Source: a virus. From it: 21,673 nt of DNA. Each line of letters begins with the position of its first letter. The first letter of the stretch is position 1. The stretch is from the IMG/VR virus record IMGVR_UViG_3300023176_007343, positions 1-21,673 of that record; one strand, 5' to 3'. Below the pieces are notes generated by a model, which ran no database searches, had not been told where the DNA came from, and saw nothing but the letters and a program-made list of their open reading frames with translations. This document shows, one piece after another, positions 1 to 7,300 of the stretch. A program made the position numbers and the translations under genes.

Positions 1-72
1 ATCATTAAACAAAGTTCCAAAACCAATAATGGTTTTACGAATAATTTCGTGATAGTGATAAGTTCCTAACAT
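1..72 (-). CDS. 15: gp15 tail sheath stabiliser / tail completion protein, N-terminal fragment (cut by window edge)
   Basis: Only the first 24 codons lie in the window. They start at an ATG at 72-70 that overlaps the stop of gene 14 (TAATG), and the frame stays open to base 1. The peptide begins MLGTYHYHEIIRKTIIGFG and continues TLFND. This resembles the start of T4 gp15 as I recall it (an MFG-Y-FY opening, then basic residues, then a G-x-LF-N segment), and gene 15 is the expected gene after 13 and 14. In T4, gp15 forms the hexameric ring that ends the tail tube and sheath and joins the tail to the neck. No strong Shine-Dalgarno is visible, so translation is probably coupled to gene 14. The assignment rests on a short peptide plus gene order. 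Confidence 0.72.
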   Translation of the reverse strand, partial: MLGTYHYHEIIRKTIIGFGTLFND

Positions 73-1442
73 TAATATGTACCAAAGGGATTAGATTCTG
101 TAAAGTCTAGAATAAGATCTGCTTCTGTCTCAATCGTTTCATTTTGTTTATATTTATCAGTCGTAGTGTTAGCGGTTGATACATTTATTACATATGAAGC
201 ACTAGATGCTGCTCCAACAACCAATTCTCCAGGATAAAATGTCCCTGTTACAATTCCAACTCTCAGAATATTTGTATCAGTATCCCAATTTTTAACTCTT
301 GCAGATGAACCAGATATTGAACCAGTTACAATCTCATTAAATTGATATGTTCCAATTCCTGTAGTTGCAGCAGCTCCAATAGTGATGGTTGGCGCTACAG
401 TATATCCAACTCCAGAATTTACAATTCTAATTCCAGTTACTTCTCCATTACCATTAATAACTGACTTCGCTGTTGCCGTAGTTCCTCCCCCTACAGGTCC
501 TGAAATAGTTACCGTAGGTGCAGTTGTGTATCCATTACCAGATTGTGTTATTGAAATAGTTCCAATTCCACTAGTAGTAATACCACAAGTAGCAATAGCA
601 CCAAATCCTCCACCACCACTGATAGTAACTGTTGGATTTGTGGTATATCCTAAACCAGGATTAATCAAAAGTATTTCTTTTACAGAATTAACACCACCTT
701 TAAATGTTGTAATAGCAACTGCCTCTGCAGTCACTCCACCGACAGGAGCAGCAGATATCGTTACTGTAGGTGTGCTTGTATAACTGTAACCATCATTGTT
801 TAAGAATATTTCTTTAACTCCACCAATAACTTTAGTGGTTATTGCCGTTGCATCAGTTCCTGAAGATAAGAGATTAAGGTCTACGATATATCCAGTATTT
901 TCAAGAACAGTATCTATTTCTTCAATGGTTGTATCTAAAGTTTCGTCTTCATATTCGAAGAGTTCACACTTGAGTTCATAAACATAATTCTTACCTAACT
1001 GATAGAAAGGATTTTCATGTTCTACAAACTTTACTTCAAATAATCTTTGACCGAGAGGAAAATAAATTAAATCCCCTTCTCTTGGTCTAGTAGAAAGTTC
1101 ATACTCAGTATCACTTCCAGCATCCAAAAATGGAGAAATAAAATCTTCAAATCTTTCTTTTGAAATTGTAAGAGATAATTCATCTCTTATACTCATACCA
1201 AACTTTGTTAAAATATCTCCAGCACCACTATATCCATCATATGTGTTTACATATGCTTCAAGCAAAAAATTATCATCAAATTTTGATGACTGAACTTCTT
1301 CAATAATAGTTTGTCTTCTTACAAATTTTCTTGGTATATAAGTTACTTCAACACCATAAATCTTGAGTTGCTCATTAATCAACTCCTGTACCAATCTTTG
1401 CTCTCCAGCAGAGCCTTGTAAGAAAAAGGGATTAAGTGCCAT
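72..1442 (-). CDS. 14: gp14-like neck protein with a large repeat insertion
   Basis: 456 residues, against about 256 for T4 gp14. Residues 1-195 look like the conserved neck protein: the MALNPFFLQG start, QRLVQELINEQLKIYG at about 15-30, and YVYELKCELFEYEDE at about 153-167. The last ~25 residues, with the TESNPFGTY end, look like the usual C-terminus. Between about 200 and 425 lies extra sequence: four repeats carrying GYxYTxxPTVTIS (218-230), GLGYTTNPTVTI (263-274), GNGYTTAPTVTI (302-313) and GVGYTVAPTITI (344-355), then a segment at about 364-418 of the 'F-N-E-x-V-x-G, S-x-S-x-A' type seen in phage structural proteins. In T4, gp14 joins gp13 in the neck that closes the filled head for tail attachment. 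The start overlaps the gp13 stop by one base (TAATG). The gp14 call is firm from family resemblance and position. The role of the insertion is unknown; exposed decoration is an inference. Confidence 0.88.
   Translation of the reverse strand: MALNPFFLQGSAGEQRLVQELINEQLKIYGVEVTYIPRKFVRRQTIIEEVQSSKFDDNFLLEAYVNTYDGYSGAGDILTKFGMSIRDELSLTISKERFEDFISPFLDAGSDTEYELSTRPREGDLIYFPLGQRLFEVKFVEHENPFYQLGKNYVYELKCELFEYEDETLDTTIEEIDTVLENTGYIVDLNLLSSGTDATAITTKVIGGVKEIFLNNDGYSYTSTPTVTISAAPVGGVTAEAVAITTFKGGVNSVKEILLINPGLGYTTNPTVTISGGGGFGAIATCGITTSGIGTISITQSGNGYTTAPTVTISGPVGGGTTATAKSVINGNGEVTGIRIVNSGVGYTVAPTITIGAAATTGIGTYQFNEIVTGSISGSSARVKNWDTDTNILRVGIVTGTFYPGELVVGAASSASYVINVSTANTTTDKYKQNETIETEADLILDFTESNPFGTY
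168..845 (-). repeat. Insertion in gp14: four ~40-residue GxGYTxxPTVTI repeats plus a trailing module
   Basis: The repeats begin at gp14 residues near 218, 263, 302 and 344, a period of 39 to 45 residues. Each carries a Gly-rich turn, an aromatic Tyr-Thr, a Pro, and an alternating T-V-T-I strand, followed by a Gly/Ala-rich stretch and a strand of the 'V-x-x-I-x-I-x-N-x-G' kind. Residues 364-418 hold a different module. At DNA level the copies have diverged, so this is not a fresh duplication. The flanking sequence reads as ordinary gp14, so the block looks inserted rather than appended. Confidence 0.8.
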
Positions 1443-2299
1443 TATCCAATAAAGTCGTAAGGTGGAAGTTCATAATCCATAGCCATTCTGGATTTAATAT
1501 CTGCTAATTCTCTTTCAGCATCTTCATAAATTTCCCTACCATTCAATTCAATGCCGCCAGGAAGTTTAACTCCTCTAAATTTAATTAAGTTTTGACCCCA
1601 CTGCCTCTTAATTAAAGAAGTTAAATATTTCTTCAAGAAACTATCATTATATACATCTGTGAATGTATTTGGATCCAATATTCTGTAGCAGTCTAAAATG
1701 AGATAATTTCCAACATTCTGTGCCTGCCAGTCAATATCCAAATAGAGTCTATCTTGTCTCTTATTAAATCTAATCTGCTTATCAGTAGTAAGTAAGAAAT
1801 CGATATCTTCCAAATAACTCTTGACCATAGAATATTGAAGTAATTCTACAGAGTTAAAATAATATAGGTCATTCAAAAATAACTGATATTTGATACTAAA
1901 CATTCCACCAGATATTGCACTAGTATCAAATCTGAAAACCTTTTCAATACCAACTACAGAATCTGGAACTTGAATAAAATTCGAAGTTTCATAGTAATTT
2001 GAAGTAGTTGTTCCGTATCCTGGAATGGATGTAGAAGTAGCACTTGTTGTTACAATTCCTGCCGTATTTGTGCTTGAACTATTGCTAGTCGCTCTTCCCC
2101 TATCGATATCTGCCTGAGTAATTTCATACTTCAAATACATCCTTTCAACACCGTCGAAATGGCGCTCCTGAAAGTATTGAAGGGCATCATCAACCAAATC
2201 GTCTATTTGGTCATCATCGACATTTATCTCCAATACAGGGGCACCTAGACGCCTTAAACAGTAGTCTATCAGTCCCTGGCGTGTTGATGGCTTAGCCAT
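1442..2299 (-). CDS. 13: gp13 neck (head completion) protein
   Basis: 285 residues; T4 gp13 has 309. The N-terminal stretch TRQGLIDYCLRRLGAPV (about 6-22), followed by an acidic IDDLVDDALQYFQERHFDG segment (about 32-50), is the typical opening of gp13 in marine T4-like phages. Residues about 70-100 form a Ser/Thr-rich linker (alternating S/T, ending SIPGYGTTTS). The later part contains VGIEKVFRF and a long conserved-looking stretch with QLFLNDLYYFNS, RLYLDIDWQAQ and KYLTSLIKRQWGQNL. The C-terminus is YELPPYDFIG. With gp14 this protein makes the neck that seals the DNA-filled head and accepts the tail. The start at 2299 is supported by a GGAGG Shine-Dalgarno nine bases upstream and by TAATG coupling to the preceding fibre gene. 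The low-complexity linker may be specific to this lineage. Confidence 0.93.
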   Translation of the reverse strand: MAKPSTRQGLIDYCLRRLGAPVLEINVDDDQIDDLVDDALQYFQERHFDGVERMYLKYEITQADIDRGRATSNSSSTNTAGIVTTSATSTSIPGYGTTTSNYYETSNFIQVPDSVVGIEKVFRFDTSAISGGMFSIKYQLFLNDLYYFNSVELLQYSMVKSYLEDIDFLLTTDKQIRFNKRQDRLYLDIDWQAQNVGNYLILDCYRILDPNTFTDVYNDSFLKKYLTSLIKRQWGQNLIKFRGVKLPGGIELNGREIYEDAERELADIKSRMAMDYELPPYDFIG

Positions 2300-3339
2300 T
2301 AGAATTGTCCTCCATCAATTGTTGAAGTCCATACAGGAACTCCGCTTACTTCTTCTGTTGTTAATATGTAGTAGCTTTGTGATATTGCACTTTCAGTACT
2401 TGCCGCACCAATCAATTTTCCATTATTATTAAAATATGTGATACCATTTGGACCATCAAAATTTCCAACATCATAATATAATCCTTGAACAAAAGTTGCG
2501 ACTCCAGAAACACTAAGTTGATCATCAATTGTTACTGTACCACCAGCAGAATCAATCGTTAAGTTTCCAGATGAAGTATTAATCTCATTGGTACTTGTAA
2601 TTCCAATCTGGATATTATCTACAACTGCTCCAGTAGCAAAAGTTCCTACTCCAGAAAAATTTGCATGTCTCCATGCTTTTCCAGAAATACCGATATCATA
2701 AGAATCATTATCATTTGGTACGAGGTTTGAAATGAATTCACCAGAAACATTAATATCATCAGTATTTCCATCACCAAGATTAATCGTACCTCCTCTAAAT
2801 GTTACTACTCCAATAAATTCAGAATATCCGGCAACATAAAGACTTCCGCCAATACTTACATTCTTATTAACTCCAAGACCACCATCAATTTGAACTGCAC
2901 CAGTGTCTGGATTTGCTAGAGTATTATCTGTAGTATTTGTATAAGTTGTAATTCCAGAAAATATTGAATCTGAAAAACTATTTGACCAACTTAAATTTCC
3001 ATTACCATCAGTAATTAATGCTGCTGATGATACTCCATCAGTCGCTGGAAAATAATATGTTATTGCAGCACCAACCGATGCTGGTGCAGAAAGGGTGATT
3101 GAAGTTCCAGCAGATCCTACGGAATGTGCTGAAACAAGATTTACACCGCCGCCAGCACTAACAGTTTCCTTTTTCCAATATCTAGAACTTCCGAAAAATT
3201 GTTGATTTGCGGCAGTACCATCAACACCAATATAAAAATTATATTCATCAGTAACAAAACCAGGTTCACCTGCTTGGAAAGAAGCTATTCCTACATTAGA
3301 TTGCTGACCTCTTTTAAACTGTAGTACAGGGGTCGCCAT
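2299..3339 (-). CDS. Fibre-like virion protein in the fibritin (wac) position
   Basis: 346 residues. The N-terminus has QFKRG (7-11), GEPGFVTDE (24-32) and FYIGVDG (35-41). This is the 'RG ... GE-P-x-F-x-TD ... x-IG-DG' pattern found at the N-terminus of many phage tail fibres and of major tropism determinant-type proteins. Residues about 93-118 match the frequent fibre motif 'Y-x-FPATDG ... LITDGNGNLSW'. Later segments, SIGGSLYVAG, LVPNDNDSYDIGISGKAWRH (about 205-225) and LTIDSAGGTVTIDDQLSV, look like the repeating beta shaft of trimeric fibres. I see no S74 peptidase/chaperone domain. T4 places fibritin (whisker) directly before gene 13, so this is a candidate collar or whisker fibre by position, not by sequence similarity to wac. 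It has its own late promoter at 3374-3368, and only a weak GGG Shine-Dalgarno 14 bases upstream. It ends in a TAATG overlap with gp13. Confidence 0.72.
   Translation of the reverse strand: MATPVLQFKRGQQSNVGIASFQAGEPGFVTDEYNFYIGVDGTAANQQFFGSSRYWKKETVSAGGGVNLVSAHSVGSAGTSITLSAPASVGAAITYYFPATDGVSSAALITDGNGNLSWSNSFSDSIFSGITTYTNTTDNTLANPDTGAVQIDGGLGVNKNVSIGGSLYVAGYSEFIGVVTFRGGTINLGDGNTDDINVSGEFISNLVPNDNDSYDIGISGKAWRHANFSGVGTFATGAVVDNIQIGITSTNEINTSSGNLTIDSAGGTVTIDDQLSVSGVATFVQGLYYDVGNFDGPNGITYFNNNGKLIGAASTESAISQSYYILTTEEVSGVPVWTSTIDGGQF
2309..2313 (-). promoter_or_regulatory. Shine-Dalgarno GGAGG for gene 13
   Basis: A full GGAGG on the minus strand, nine bases before the gp13 ATG, lies inside the last codons of the fibre gene. 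It is the strongest ribosome binding site in the window and suggests gp13 is translated well independently of coupling. Confidence 0.8.
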
Positions 3340-3367
3340 TTTTTAGTTTTTTTCCCTTTTATAATGG

Positions 3368-3374
3368 TATTTAG
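3368..3374 (-). promoter_or_regulatory. T4-like late promoter core CTAAATA, upstream of the fibre gene
   Basis: On the minus strand this reads CTAAATA, the variant of the T4 late -10 element (TATAAATA) seen in marine T4-like phages. It lies in one of only two real intergenic gaps in the window, four bases after the stop of the 81-residue gene and about 30 bases before the fibre ATG at 3339. It would direct transcription of fibre, gp13, gp14 and gp15. Position and motif agree; no -35 element is expected for this promoter class. Confidence 0.72.
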
Positions 3375-3377
3375 TTG

Positions 3378-3623
3378 CTAAAAAGTTCCAAAATCAATAG
3401 ATTGATTGTCTACAGCATCTGCAAGGTCTAAGATTTGTGCAGGGTCAACATGCTTATACACTTTTTCAACAGAATCATAAATCAATACTGTATTATCTGC
3501 TCTAGCATCTACATTAACATCTGCAATATTTTCTAATTTATCAAGGAATGTACCAGAAGGTGCATTTGAGGCAATTACTTTAATTGCGTTTTGTTGTCCG
3601 ATTCTAACTCTTACATCAGACAT
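3378..3623 (-). CDS. Small conserved-type structural protein (81 aa)
   Basis: 81 residues, no assigned function. The N-terminus, MSDVRVRIGQQNAIKV, is followed by a segment with LENIADVNVDARADNTVLIYDS (about 30-51). The second part resembles the 'DG-x-L-x-YD-x-x-x-x-x-W/Y' repeat commonly seen in tail fibre and spike proteins. The C-terminus is acidic and ends SIDFGTF. There is no signal peptide or membrane segment. The start at 3623 overlaps the stop of the 112-residue gene (TAATG) and has an AAGGAG Shine-Dalgarno ten bases upstream, so the two small genes are made together. The position between baseplate and neck genes and the fibre-like motif suggest a minor virion component or fibre connector. 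That is inference. Confidence 0.75.
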   Translation of the reverse strand: MSDVRVRIGQQNAIKVIASNAPSGTFLDKLENIADVNVDARADNTVLIYDSVEKVYKHVDPAQILDLADAVDNQSIDFGTF

Positions 3624-3961
3624 TATCGTGTTACTCCTTGACTTACTAATACCATTCCTTCAACAACTCTAGTAGTTGTATTTGCAGTATCTGTAATCAC
3701 AACATCATAAACATATCTACCAGGTTTTAAACTTGCAGTTTGAGATGTCGTCAATCCCAATTGAATTTGTCCGCCAGATTCATTGTAAATGCTAGTAGTA
3801 AAGGTAGTTACACCAGTACTCCCAGCATGTTTTCTCATTTGAGAAGAAATATTATATCCAGCAAGATTTAAAACAGAATTTGTCGCAGAACTTTCTAAGG
3901 TAAATATGCGACTAAAATCTGTTCCAGTATTAATAGTTAGATTACTTACGTAAACTGCCAT
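3623..3961 (-). CDS. Small beta-rich virion protein (112 aa)
   Basis: 112 residues, predicted mostly beta from alternating hydrophobics. Visible features are FSRIFTLES near residue 16, a SSQMRKHAGS segment near 40-49, GGQIQLGLTTSQTASLKPG (about 63-81), and RYVYDVVITD followed by RVVEGMVLVSQGVTR at the end. The pattern 'polar strand, S-x-x-RK, G-x-I-x-L-x-L-T-x-x-Q-T-x-x-L-x-x-G-x-Y-x-YD-x-x-x-D, R-x-x-EG-x-x-x-V-x-x-x-VTR' is that of small immunoglobulin-like phage baseplate or fibre adaptor domains (BppU N-terminal-like). I infer a baseplate or fibre-attachment role and cannot name a T4 equivalent. A late promoter-like CATAAATA sits 20 bases upstream, overlapping the stop of the preceding gene. 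The Shine-Dalgarno is weak. Confidence 0.78.
   Translation of the reverse strand: MAVYVSNLTINTGTDFSRIFTLESSATNSVLNLAGYNISSQMRKHAGSTGVTTFTTSIYNESGGQIQLGLTTSQTASLKPGRYVYDVVITDTANTTTRVVEGMVLVSQGVTR
3634..3639 (-). promoter_or_regulatory. Shine-Dalgarno AAGGAG for the 81-aa gene
   Basis: It reads AAGGAG on the minus strand, ten bases before the ATG at 3623, and lies inside the 3' end of the 112-residue gene. It supports the chosen start in addition to the TAATG overlap. Confidence 0.7.
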
Positions 3962-3980
3962 TTTCTAAGATATTTAAAAA

Positions 3981-3988
3981 TATTTATG
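3981..3988 (-). promoter_or_regulatory. Late promoter-like box CATAAATA, upstream of the 112-aa gene
   Basis: It reads CATAAATA on the minus strand, one base off the T4 late consensus TATAAATA. The first TAA within it is the stop codon of the 59-residue gene. Its end is 20 bases before the ATG at 3961, almost the same spacing as the perfect box in front of gene 8. It would start a transcript carrying the two small virion genes and probably reading on into fibre, gp13 and gp14. Confidence 0.55.
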
Positions 3989-4163
3989 CTAAACCAGATA
4001 TAGCAAAGTTTTTAATGACCTCTTGTTGCTTCAAATAGAGTTTAAAATAAGACTTTGCAAAATTTTTCAATTCATCAACATCTAATTCATCAATAAGTCT
4101 TGAATACTTTTCATATTCAAACATTTTATTCATTGTTTCTAACTCAATTTTGTCTGGGTCCAT
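3984..4163 (-). CDS. Small hypothetical protein (59 aa), overlapping its upstream neighbour
   Basis: This 59-residue frame falls just below a 60-residue cut-off. It starts at the ATG at 4163-4161 and ends at TAA (3986-3984). A GGAG Shine-Dalgarno lies seven bases before the ATG, better than that of most genes here. It overlaps the preceding 67-residue gene by 20 bases in another frame and fills what would otherwise be an unexplained gap of about 180 bases. The peptide is acidic at the N-terminus (MDPDKIELETMNKMFEYEKY) and continues with LIDELDVDELKNFAKSYFKL, which looks all-helical. It ends IKNFAISGLA. No transmembrane segment or known domain is visible. Position suggests a small virion component or assembly factor. 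The function is unknown. Confidence 0.85.
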   Translation of the reverse strand: MDPDKIELETMNKMFEYEKYSRLIDELDVDELKNFAKSYFKLYLKQQEVIKNFAISGLA

Positions 4164-4347
4164 TGATTAACTCCATAAGTAGGGATTTGATTTCGCCAAT
4201 ATCTTTTTTCATCTCTTGGATTTCCATTTTCTGTCGGCGTCTCTCCTCCTTCATTCTAATGTAGTTATTATATTCATTAGTATCAGTATTTACAATAGCA
4301 CCTGAATCATTACGATACAGGTGCTGTTCACCTTCTACTCTTTTCAT
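4144..4347 (-). CDS. Small coiled-coil protein (67 aa)
   Basis: 67 residues. The N-terminal part, MKRVEGEQHLYRNDSGAIVN followed by TDTNEYNNYIRMKEERRRQK, has the look of a conserved marine-phage small protein: a short motif with 'LYR-D-x-x-GAI-x-NTD-x-x-EY-x-x-Y'. From about residue 30 to 62 it is a strongly charged helix (KEERRRQKMEIQEMKKDIGE, then IKSLLMELI) with heptad-like hydrophobic spacing, so probably a coiled coil. It starts two bases after the stop of the 2,459-residue gene, with no clear Shine-Dalgarno, and is probably coupled to it. A coiled-coil partner or chaperone for the large baseplate protein is possible but not shown. The function is unknown. Confidence 0.8.
   Translation of the reverse strand: MKRVEGEQHLYRNDSGAIVNTDTNEYNNYIRMKEERRRQKMEIQEMKKDIGEIKSLLMELINGPRQN
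4171..4174 (-). promoter_or_regulatory. Shine-Dalgarno GGAG deciding the 59-aa gene
   Basis: It reads GGAG on the minus strand, seven bases before the ATG at 4163, and lies inside the 67-residue gene. It is the main reason for calling the overlapped short gene real. Confidence 0.65.
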
Positions 4348-4348
4348 A

Positions 4349-7300
4349 TTATGCTAAAGCGATGACTTTCAAATTCTTAAATATTGGTGGATATGCTTCA
4401 TTGGTACCACTAGCAACAATTTTAATTCTAAATCCATTAAATTTATCTAAGTCATCAGCAGTGAACTGATATTCATAGAATTCTCCGTCAACACTCGCTG
4501 GGAGGAATGCGTCCGCCTTTCCATTATTTTTTGTAACATCAACTACTAAATCACCAAATCCATCAGCATTAGTATCCTTCAGATTATCATATCCTGGGAA
4601 TAACTCATATGTCTCAATATTGTTGCTGGATTCAACTTTAAAGAGTTGGTAAAGGACTCTAAAGTCGGCGGAAGAATGTCTATAAGCATCAACAAGAACT
4701 TTGAGTGATGTTGCAGGTTGCTCAAGGTCAACTTTTTGAGTTACATAGAGATATGCGTGTGGATCTCCAGCAACAAGATTTACGCGAGGATCTAATACAT
4801 AATCTGCGATTGGTTTATTCAATCTATTTCTATGCAACTCAACAGTTGCACTAGAATAATCAATGAATGGTGAAAGATTCTTGTCTCCACTATTATCAAG
4901 TGTTACTGCATAAGTAAATGATCTGCTTTGAGGGAGAGTACTCAGAATTGTATCAGTGGTTTCATTTGGTCTAGATGCAATTGTCCTCACACTGGAAAGA
5001 GGTGTTAAAGCATTATTATCAATACTTTGATAACCCTGATCTGCAAACAGTGTTTCAGTTCCATCAGCACTTCTTCCAGAAACAGTTCTTATCTGAGAAT
5101 TTGCTGAAACCTTATCACTAATACCGTCAATAACAATATTTGTCTTAATTGCGTTGAATTGAAGGTTTCTAGTTGCTTTTACATTTTTACCACCAACAGC
5201 ATTTTCATCTGTGAAAGATCTCATACTGGTTCCAGAAGTAATAGCACCTAAAGTTCCACCTAAGAATGAAGTTGTAGCAGATCTGTTGATTTTCAGGAAA
5301 TATTCATCAATTCCAGTATCATTAGAAATAATGCCTGCAGCACCAGTATTTCCATTTCCAGAATGTGTAACTTCATTACCTTCATCACTGTTTATTCTCG
5401 TCAGAGAGATTCCATTCAACTCATACTTGTAAACCTTAGAGTTTGCAGCGTGTGATGTTGGATTAACTCCTCTAGTAACGGTAAGTTGTCCAGAACCAAT
5501 TGAAGTATATCTCATAATCTCATTATCAATCTTCAAATATCCGCTAGTAGCAGTACTATTTTCAAAAGTGGTAAAGATTGCAGTGTTTGCTACTGCAACA
5601 GTTGTATCTGTTGTGTTTATAGCAACATCAAGAGTCGTTGGGATACTATCTGGTTGAATTCCTGTGAGAGATACTACATGACCTAAACCATGCATACCGT
5701 GATTAATTTGTGCAACTCTAATTGTGTTACCATCAAATCTAGTATCAGTAGAATCTGTGCTACTTGTAATTGTAGTAGAAGCCAAACTTACTACAGTTGT
5801 AGGTGTATTGAAATAGCACAGAGGATCTGTAGTAGTAAAGTCCTCACCCTGAACATTCGTTAAGTATAAAGTGTCAATTCCACCGATTTCATCTACTGTA
5901 ATTTGAGCACCTTTTCCTTTTTGAACTTGTGATGTTGTAATTCCAAGAAGATCTCCAACAACATAACCAGAACCAGCCGTTGTGATTGTTACACCAGTAA
6001 CTATACCAACAGCACTAACATAAACAGTTGCCTGTGCACCAGTACCAGATGCTTGAATGGAGTACAAATCTACATTAGTAAATTCACCTGCAGAATAACC
6101 TATTCCAGTATTTGTTATGGTAATGAAATCATTGATTGTACCTGTATCAGTTATACCGCCACCAACATTTTCAATAATACCTGATGGGTTTGTTAATCCT
6201 GTTGAGACTGTTCCGTGACTAACTTTAGTACCAATAGTTAGATCACCATTGAGAACATCTGTAACACCAAAACCAACACTAATTTTTCTTGGAAGAGTTA
6301 AAATTGAATTCTCTTCGAGTTGATATTCTGGACTGGTATTACTTAAGTTGTTGTAGAAGTATACGGTTCCTGGTGTAGTTACGAATTCAGCTTTGTTTAT
6401 TCTGAACTTCATATCTTCATTTTGGTTTTCTGTCCAAAGAGAACCATTTTGAGATCTGAAGAGAGCACCACCAGTATATTGCTTAGCACTAACGATACTT
6501 TCTGATTCTGGTAAAGAATTTGGAGATACATCAGCATTGCCTGTTTGTGAAATCCAAACTTCGTAGTCGTTAGATGATGGTGAAAGTAAAACAATAGCGT
6601 ATTCAGTACCTGCTTTGAGTGGTACAGGTGTTTTGAATTTAAAATTAGTAACTTCTGAGGCATCTGGAGAAACAGATACTTCACTTGCCTGAAGAATTAC
6701 CTGAGAATCTGATATAACCAGATTTTGTGATGGTTTTGCATCATCAGTTACTTCAACAAGTTGTAAAGTAACAGTTGGTTCTCCATCACTTTCAATTATG
6801 TTATCCGTTATACCAGTACTAATTCCAGTTTGTGTTCCTGGTTTTGTTTTAAACCAAACATCAACAGATGTACAAGTAATATTATCTTCACCTGTGAAGA
6901 AAGTTTGGGCAAGTGGATCAAGATGCTTCTTCATCTTGACTGTAGTTTGCTTAACTAACTCAATAACACCAGTTGATGTGTATAGAGCTTCAGCATTACC
7001 TATAGATGGTTTTCCAGGACCATCAATAGCATTTGTTTTGCTTGTCGTTAGTTTGAATGTTTTGGTACCAGTTGTGAATAATTTATCTTTATTGGTTACT
7101 ACCTCTTGAAGATTGTTTTTCTTATATTTCTTCTTGGTATTGCCTAATAAAGTTATATCTGGTACTGTTACTGTATTTGTTTCAGAATCTTTTGTGAATC
7201 CTTTTTTAATTTGCTTTTTACTTAACTTTTTCTTCTTGGTGAAGGTATAAACATACTTTGGTTTTCTGAGGAAGAATGAACCAATAATACTTCCAGAAAT

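Follow-up and report, generated by a model that had tools for sequence, protein, structure and literature searches.

Why does a phage neck protein carry a block of repeats in the middle of its chain, and does that block decorate the particle? The question arises in the viral DNA analysed here (the window, 21,673 nucleotides in all), in which an open reading frame on the minus strand (72..1442) encodes a gp14, the head closure protein Hc2 or neck stopper, of 456 residues against 256 in the T2 homologue of T4 gp14. The internal insertion reported in the initial annotation is real; the same annotation had taken the block for an elaboration that would project decoration from the collar, at a place where whiskers and host-sensing fibres sit in T4.

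A T4-type stopper with repeats in its C-terminal arm

The protein matches the neck-protein core PF11649 over residues 3-184 (Pfam, E 2.4e-32), the head closure Hc2 profile phrog_460 (PHROG profiles, E 1.4e-138) and the T4 gp14 sequence in the PDB (phmmer, E 1.5e-25). As T4-type gene order requires, its gene sits between that of its upstream partner gp13, the head-tail adaptor Ad2 (1442..2299, minus strand; phrog_211, E 2.2e-47), and that of gp15, the tail sheath stabiliser, which leaves the window after its 5' end (1..72, minus strand; translation MLGTYHYHEIIRKTIIGFGTLFND, matching the gp15 of relatives) and whose first codons overlap the gp14 stop. The cultured phages S-SRM01 and P-SSM2 have gp13 and gp14 in the order of the window, and the longer order of S-SRM01 (baseplate wedge initiator, baseplate wedge, 'VriC' protein, small genes, gene in the gp13 position, gp14) matches it as well. 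We conclude that the window gp14 is an ordinary T4-type stopper and a typical member of a family found in cultured phages.

Several features lie ahead of gp13. A 346-aa protein (2299-3339, minus strand) has an N-terminus resembling Mtd_N of the major tropism determinant (E 2e-4, below cut-off), and an 81-aa ORF and this protein (2299-3623 for the pair, minus strand) each match one half of phrog_13853 (positions 2-55 and 56-151, respectively), a pattern that would fit a single gene divided by added sequence. The interval between a VrlC-like 2459-aa gene and gp13 (2299-4349) is only about 2 kb long, whereas many cyanomyophages carry a large host-recognition island there. Pelagimyophages have a hypervariable host-recognition island between VrlC and gp14, and such an island is on record for cyanomyophages too (PMC7029224).

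Within gp14, whose parts all lie on the minus strand, residues 1-180 (903..1442) are the core, comprising the N-terminal helix and the stopper barrel recognised by VIA-align and phmmer. The first strands of what we call the carrier module follow (residues 183-204, 831..896; model strand 186-192), ahead of four copies of a repeat with the consensus GxGYTxxPT(V/I)TI within residues 205-362: repeat 1 (205-246, 705..830; motif at 218, HMM i-E 2.7e-19), repeat 2 (247-290, 573..704; motif at 263, i-E 1.5e-11), repeat 3 (291-328, 459..572; motif at 302, i-E 3.1e-12) and repeat 4 (329-362, 357..458; motif at 344, i-E 6e-7). The trailing part of the carrier (363-424, 171..356) has the consensus GxxxxNExVxGxxSGxxARVKxWD...GxFxPGE and matches the carrier HMM over 364-440 (i-E 2.7e-34); the tail (425-456, 75..170) consists of a model helix at 432-442 and then DFTESNPFG, and is a predicted gp15 contact. 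Because the repeat HMM was built from the gp14 of relatives, its matches (207-246, 253-288, 289-330 and 330-372) document conservation and are not an independent discovery. A chance origin of the motif is ruled out, since 20,000 shuffles of the block gave at most 1 motif against the 4 observed. By Pfam the block has no recognised binding domain, and it has no sequence match in the PDB. The four repeats and trailing module had therefore been read correctly at the outset. Of the two ends then called gp14-like, the core stands (residues 1 to ~180), while the last ~25 residues are gp14-like only in the short motif [S/T/N]PF[D/G] that is common to most T4-type gp14. The block limits first given, residues 200-425, correspond exactly to positions 168-845 of the window and hold in that sense, the structural start being nearer residue 183.

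The AlphaFold model was built from a diverse 89-sequence alignment; a shallow alignment had given a poor core, which the wider one improved. In this single-chain model (pTM 0.48), residues 1-165 take the T4 stopper fold (VIA-align, Z 13.0 to 9lu4_M; 127 residues, chain 26-177) and residues ~186-422 form a beta block whose ten-residue mean pLDDT lies mostly in the range 80-94. The separate beta domain beside an intact gp14 core that had been anticipated is thus seen in the model, which predicts a separately folding beta region and leaves its orientation to the core loose; the position on the outer face that had also been expected is thereby only presumed. Strand 186-192 and the trailing module align jointly to single small barrels in solved structures, with the repeats falling between them, and for this reason we place the structural start of the block at about residue 183. 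The best match (9f4a_A0 761-847, VIA-align) has Z 8.4 and rmsd 2.6 over 80 residues; unrelated barrels score Z 5.7-6.3. With a Z as modest as 8.4, we infer that the trailing module is probably a carrier barrel and the repeats an excursion from it. A Foldseek search of the PDB with the block found nothing significant, and among the VIA-align matches listed none exceeded Z 8.4, which does not imply a new fold.

Family distribution of the block and turnover of the arm

Every full-length gp14 among the viral-contig relatives of the window (cores 62-93% identical) has the block at the same place, and shorter versions occur only in other lineages. Exactly four repeats were detected in 93 genomes, and loss of the repeats was seen in none of the full-length relatives that belong to the window's clade. 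In 362 of 372 cases the best match of a repeat was the repeat at the same position in another genome, which rules out a recent tandem duplication in the window; mean identity was 43-64% at the same position across genomes versus 31-39% between positions within a genome. Over 250 pairs, the median dN/dS was lowest in the core (0.16) and rose through the tail (0.22) and the carrier (0.34) to the repeats (0.39). To judge from these comparisons, the repeats are orthologous by position and the block is old and kept, as first proposed, under weaker constraint than the core. By the criterion set in the initial annotation, its presence at the same place in all full-length close relatives makes it a normal trait of the window's lineage.

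Most T4-type gp14 have 60-79 residues past the core. Arms longer than that of the window exist, with 365-383 residues past the core and, in the cultured phages S-8S53 and S-PRM1, with 459-470 residues and 7-8 units; the protein of L057 reaches 851 aa with 9 units. A 369-aa gp14 in two contigs (L077:547-1653 and L080:3001-4107) is without the carrier and the NPFG tail, for which reason both were left out of the count of short natural versions. L077 has a fibre-like reading frame after gp14, and no gp15 was detected adjoining the 369-aa gp14. Downstream of gp14 in L024 and L047, gp15 is spread over two or more reading frames, possibly through frameshifts or sequencing errors.

Turnover of the arm is seen directly in a second cyanophage group (the ACG-2014d, S-RIM2 type), in which cores 86-100% identical to that of ACG-2014d are joined to several different arms. 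The majority of this group has an arm of ~201-206 residues with two repeats; the arm of five contigs (L095-L099) has 121 residues and consists of the carrier alone, that of L116 has 299 residues, and those of L155, L162 and L167 have 561-571 residues with six or seven FG-GAP_2 repeats (E 4e-77, 1e-74 and 1e-69 across the three). Comparison of L167 with the two-repeat contig L129 demonstrates how such a change looks in DNA: between flanks that are 88.5% and 89.5% identical, L167 has an in-frame insertion of ~1.1 kb at one point (FG-GAP_2, E 1e-74), and the breakpoint in L155 and L162 is identical. The FG-GAP forms come from these three metagenomic contigs, and no cultured record covering 80% of one was found. 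At least five changes are required to account for the four architectures on a core-DNA tree. L116 hardly differs in its core from the two-repeat L151, and L095-L099 form one clade (SH-aLRT 99) beside two-repeat genomes, including L088. Because L095-L099 are nested inside the two-repeat clade, their carrier-only state may be a loss rather than ancestral. MA10 and S-CRM01 were excluded as proof that the carrier came first, the carrier scoring 8.2 bits in S-CRM01 and none being reported for MA10. The carrier is interrupted by the repeats in the two-repeat form, where its HMM matches only downstream of them and from position 15 onward; in the window type a complete carrier match follows the repeats. 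That the repeats occupy different loops of one module in the two forms suggests that the two-repeat and four-repeat arms arose by separate insertion events.

A further kind of cargo is seen in cultured S-SSM7, the excised gp14 arm of which matches Laminin_G_3 above the curated cut-off (Pfam, E 1.4e-7), while the whole gp14 stays just below it (26.6 bits). Matches of the S-SSM7 insert in the PDB were set aside as short stretches of engineered repeat proteins. A 752-aa gp14 in L224 (3001-5256) has an insert of ~180 residues; the laminin-G reading of that insert was made by eye alone, Pfam gave no family, and we did not retain it. FG-GAP and laminin-G are families of the adhesion or sugar-binding type. 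Overall, the sequences suggest that the gp14 arm behaves as a modular insertion hot spot in cyanophages, in which repeats, propellers and laminin-G-like domains are gained, lost and swapped, and that an arm recently emptied, lengthened or refilled in this way is a mounting point for neck-exposed domains.

The block also matches a baseplate wedge family (phrog_708, E 4e-24), a tail fibre family (phrog_5342, E 2e-21) and further families of virion structural proteins. In the window itself, gp8 and the 2459-aa and 2783-aa proteins contain weak copies of repeat or carrier. These modules are, given such matches, common parts of cyanophage structural proteins and not an invention of gp14. Their recurrence across many structural protein families, together with the faster evolution of repeats and carrier than core and the existence of carrier-only relatives, would also be expected if the arm were a permissive loop that tolerates spreading structural-gene modules with little or no function of their own. 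We consider this improbable, because dN/dS is well under 1, four repeats stand in register in the 93 genomes and repeats are never lost in full-length relatives of the window's clade.

Possible roles of the arm

The best-supported statement about this locus is structural and evolutionary, namely a slowly changing core and tail with an exchangeable module in the gp15-contacting arm. In T4, residues 178-256 of gp14 are disordered in the free neck and make extensive gp15 contacts in the virion, and it is domain III of gp13 that binds the whisker fibritin (PMC12270204). The argument from the whisker site of T4 therefore fails; with 178-256 as its T4 counterpart, the block is placed by homology in the gp15-contacting arm. 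We propose that this C-terminal arm carries a separately folding beta carrier from which the four GxGYT repeats would loop out and that, with the core and the extreme C-terminal motif kept, the head-tail junction would be surrounded by six copies of the block; by analogy with T4, gp14 would form a hexameric ring on the gp13 dodecamer with the block in the gp14-gp15 joint. In the cyanophage family the arm would then be an insertion port whose cargo changes much more than the core, and exposed, weakly binding domains might help the particle to contact the cyanobacterial surface. We put the probability that the arm is an outward domain mount, most likely for weak host-surface contact, at roughly 0.55, with exposure and surface binding of the block itself presumed. 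Host contact is preferred as the role because, where the repeats are replaced or extended, the domains concerned belong to adhesion or sugar-binding types and because, in lactococcal 936 phages, a neck-located carbohydrate-binding module binds host cells (PMC6669499); FG-GAP propellers and laminin-G-like domains in the same arm elsewhere thus lend indirect support to the original decoration idea.

Module turnover on similar cores and the presence of related modules in baseplate and fibre families speak for display. Against it, four repeats persist stably across the window's clade, which is not what a fast-changing adhesin would show, the window block has no recognised binding domain, pTM is 0.48 and FG-GAP forms are known from three metagenomic contigs only. 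A broader proposal, put forward tentatively, is that cyanophages in general use the gp14 arm as a display site with rapid exchange of domains, a neck counterpart of tail-fibre adhesins that provides a second, weak host contact.

The main rival is that the block makes no host contact and clamps the gp14-gp15 junction against the pressure of packaged DNA and sheath contraction. The arm is, after all, the gp15-binding segment in T4 (PMC12270204), phage 812 has neck decoration proteins that bridge stopper and terminator and supposedly stiffen their junction (PMC12886913), and gp15 of many relatives has an extra module of ~80 residues in its C-terminal part. Long gp14 is accompanied by long gp15 in 27/29 cases versus 20/93 (Fisher p 3e-12, ancestry uncontrolled); with ancestry controlled, however, the association is unsupported (only 3 independent pairs, sign test p 0.5-1) and little if any power is left, so that correlated elaboration of the two proteins was not retained. 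Moreover, gp15 is of near-equal length (259-263 aa) alongside the carrier-only, two-repeat and propeller forms of gp14, and a clamp gives no obvious need for FG-GAP or laminin-G domains. We regard reinforcement of the joint as rather unlikely. The gp15 gene downstream of gp14 itself comes in forms of ~265 and ~348 residues in L064, L170 and L172, and the ~80-residue module of the long form has a motif ending in TVxRG, of which the window's 2459-aa protein has one copy, at residue 2070.

The block could also be a docking platform that anchors neck fibres or other structural proteins, as gp13 domain III does for the whiskers of T4. The Mtd_N-like gene directly before gp13 occupies the place of the whisker gene in T2 and T4, and decoration proteins on the phage 812 stopper probably attach neck whiskers (PMC12886913). 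Nothing ties the Mtd_N-like gene to the block, however, and the genes ahead of gp13 vary between phages, making this the least probable of the alternatives considered.

Cyanophages rank among the most abundant T4-like viruses, and we know of no resolved account of how they discriminate between closely related hosts within Prochlorococcus and Synechococcus. If an outward mount is the right reading, this neck ring protein would combine a constant core with exchangeable domains, some of them adhesin-like, and would offer a site of host contact, overlooked so far, outside the tail fibres. In the open-access papers searched we found no description of the gp14 arm as an insertion port with propeller or laminin-G-like cargo. 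Because the cultured P-SSM2, S-SSM7 and S-RIM2 carry different versions of the arm, the idea is directly testable.

Comparison with known systems

T4 gp14 (PF11649; PDB 9lu4, 9mkb) shares with the window protein the sequence and fold of the core, the order gp13-gp14-gp15 and the terminal PF motif; it differs in having ~67 residues past the core, versus ~279 in the window, and neither repeats nor carrier module. The gp14 of cultured S-SRM01, P-SSM2 and S-SM2 (phrog_460), by contrast, have the same block at the same place, with up to 61% full-length identity, and differ from the window protein solely by sequence divergence. The best structural counterpart of the carrier barrel is a barrel in the baseplate wedge (9f4a_A0 761-847; 5hx2_A 758-842), in chains that we take to be gp7 of T4-type baseplates; with 11% identity and a Z moderately above that of unrelated barrels, homology is not implied.

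Outside the T4-like phages, the neck passage structure proteins of 936 phages resemble the plan of gp14 in combining a constant, neck-attaching part with variable exposed modules (PMC6669499). They differ in fold, in being separate collar proteins and in having their modules C-terminal to a coiled coil, whereas the module of the window is internal to the stopper. Pfam and PDB sequence searches gave no carbohydrate-binding or adhesion domain in the window block; such domains are found in the arms of L155, L162 and L167 (FG-GAP_2) and S-SSM7 (Laminin_G_3). A further counterpart is the stopper gp97 of Staphylococcus phage 812, a stopper ring protein with an added external beta-sandwich domain that is missing from the homologues in E217 and Pa193 (PMC12886913). 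By that paper's domain description the extra domain of gp97 is part of the folded stopper, whereas the addition in the window consists of repeats in the C-terminal arm.
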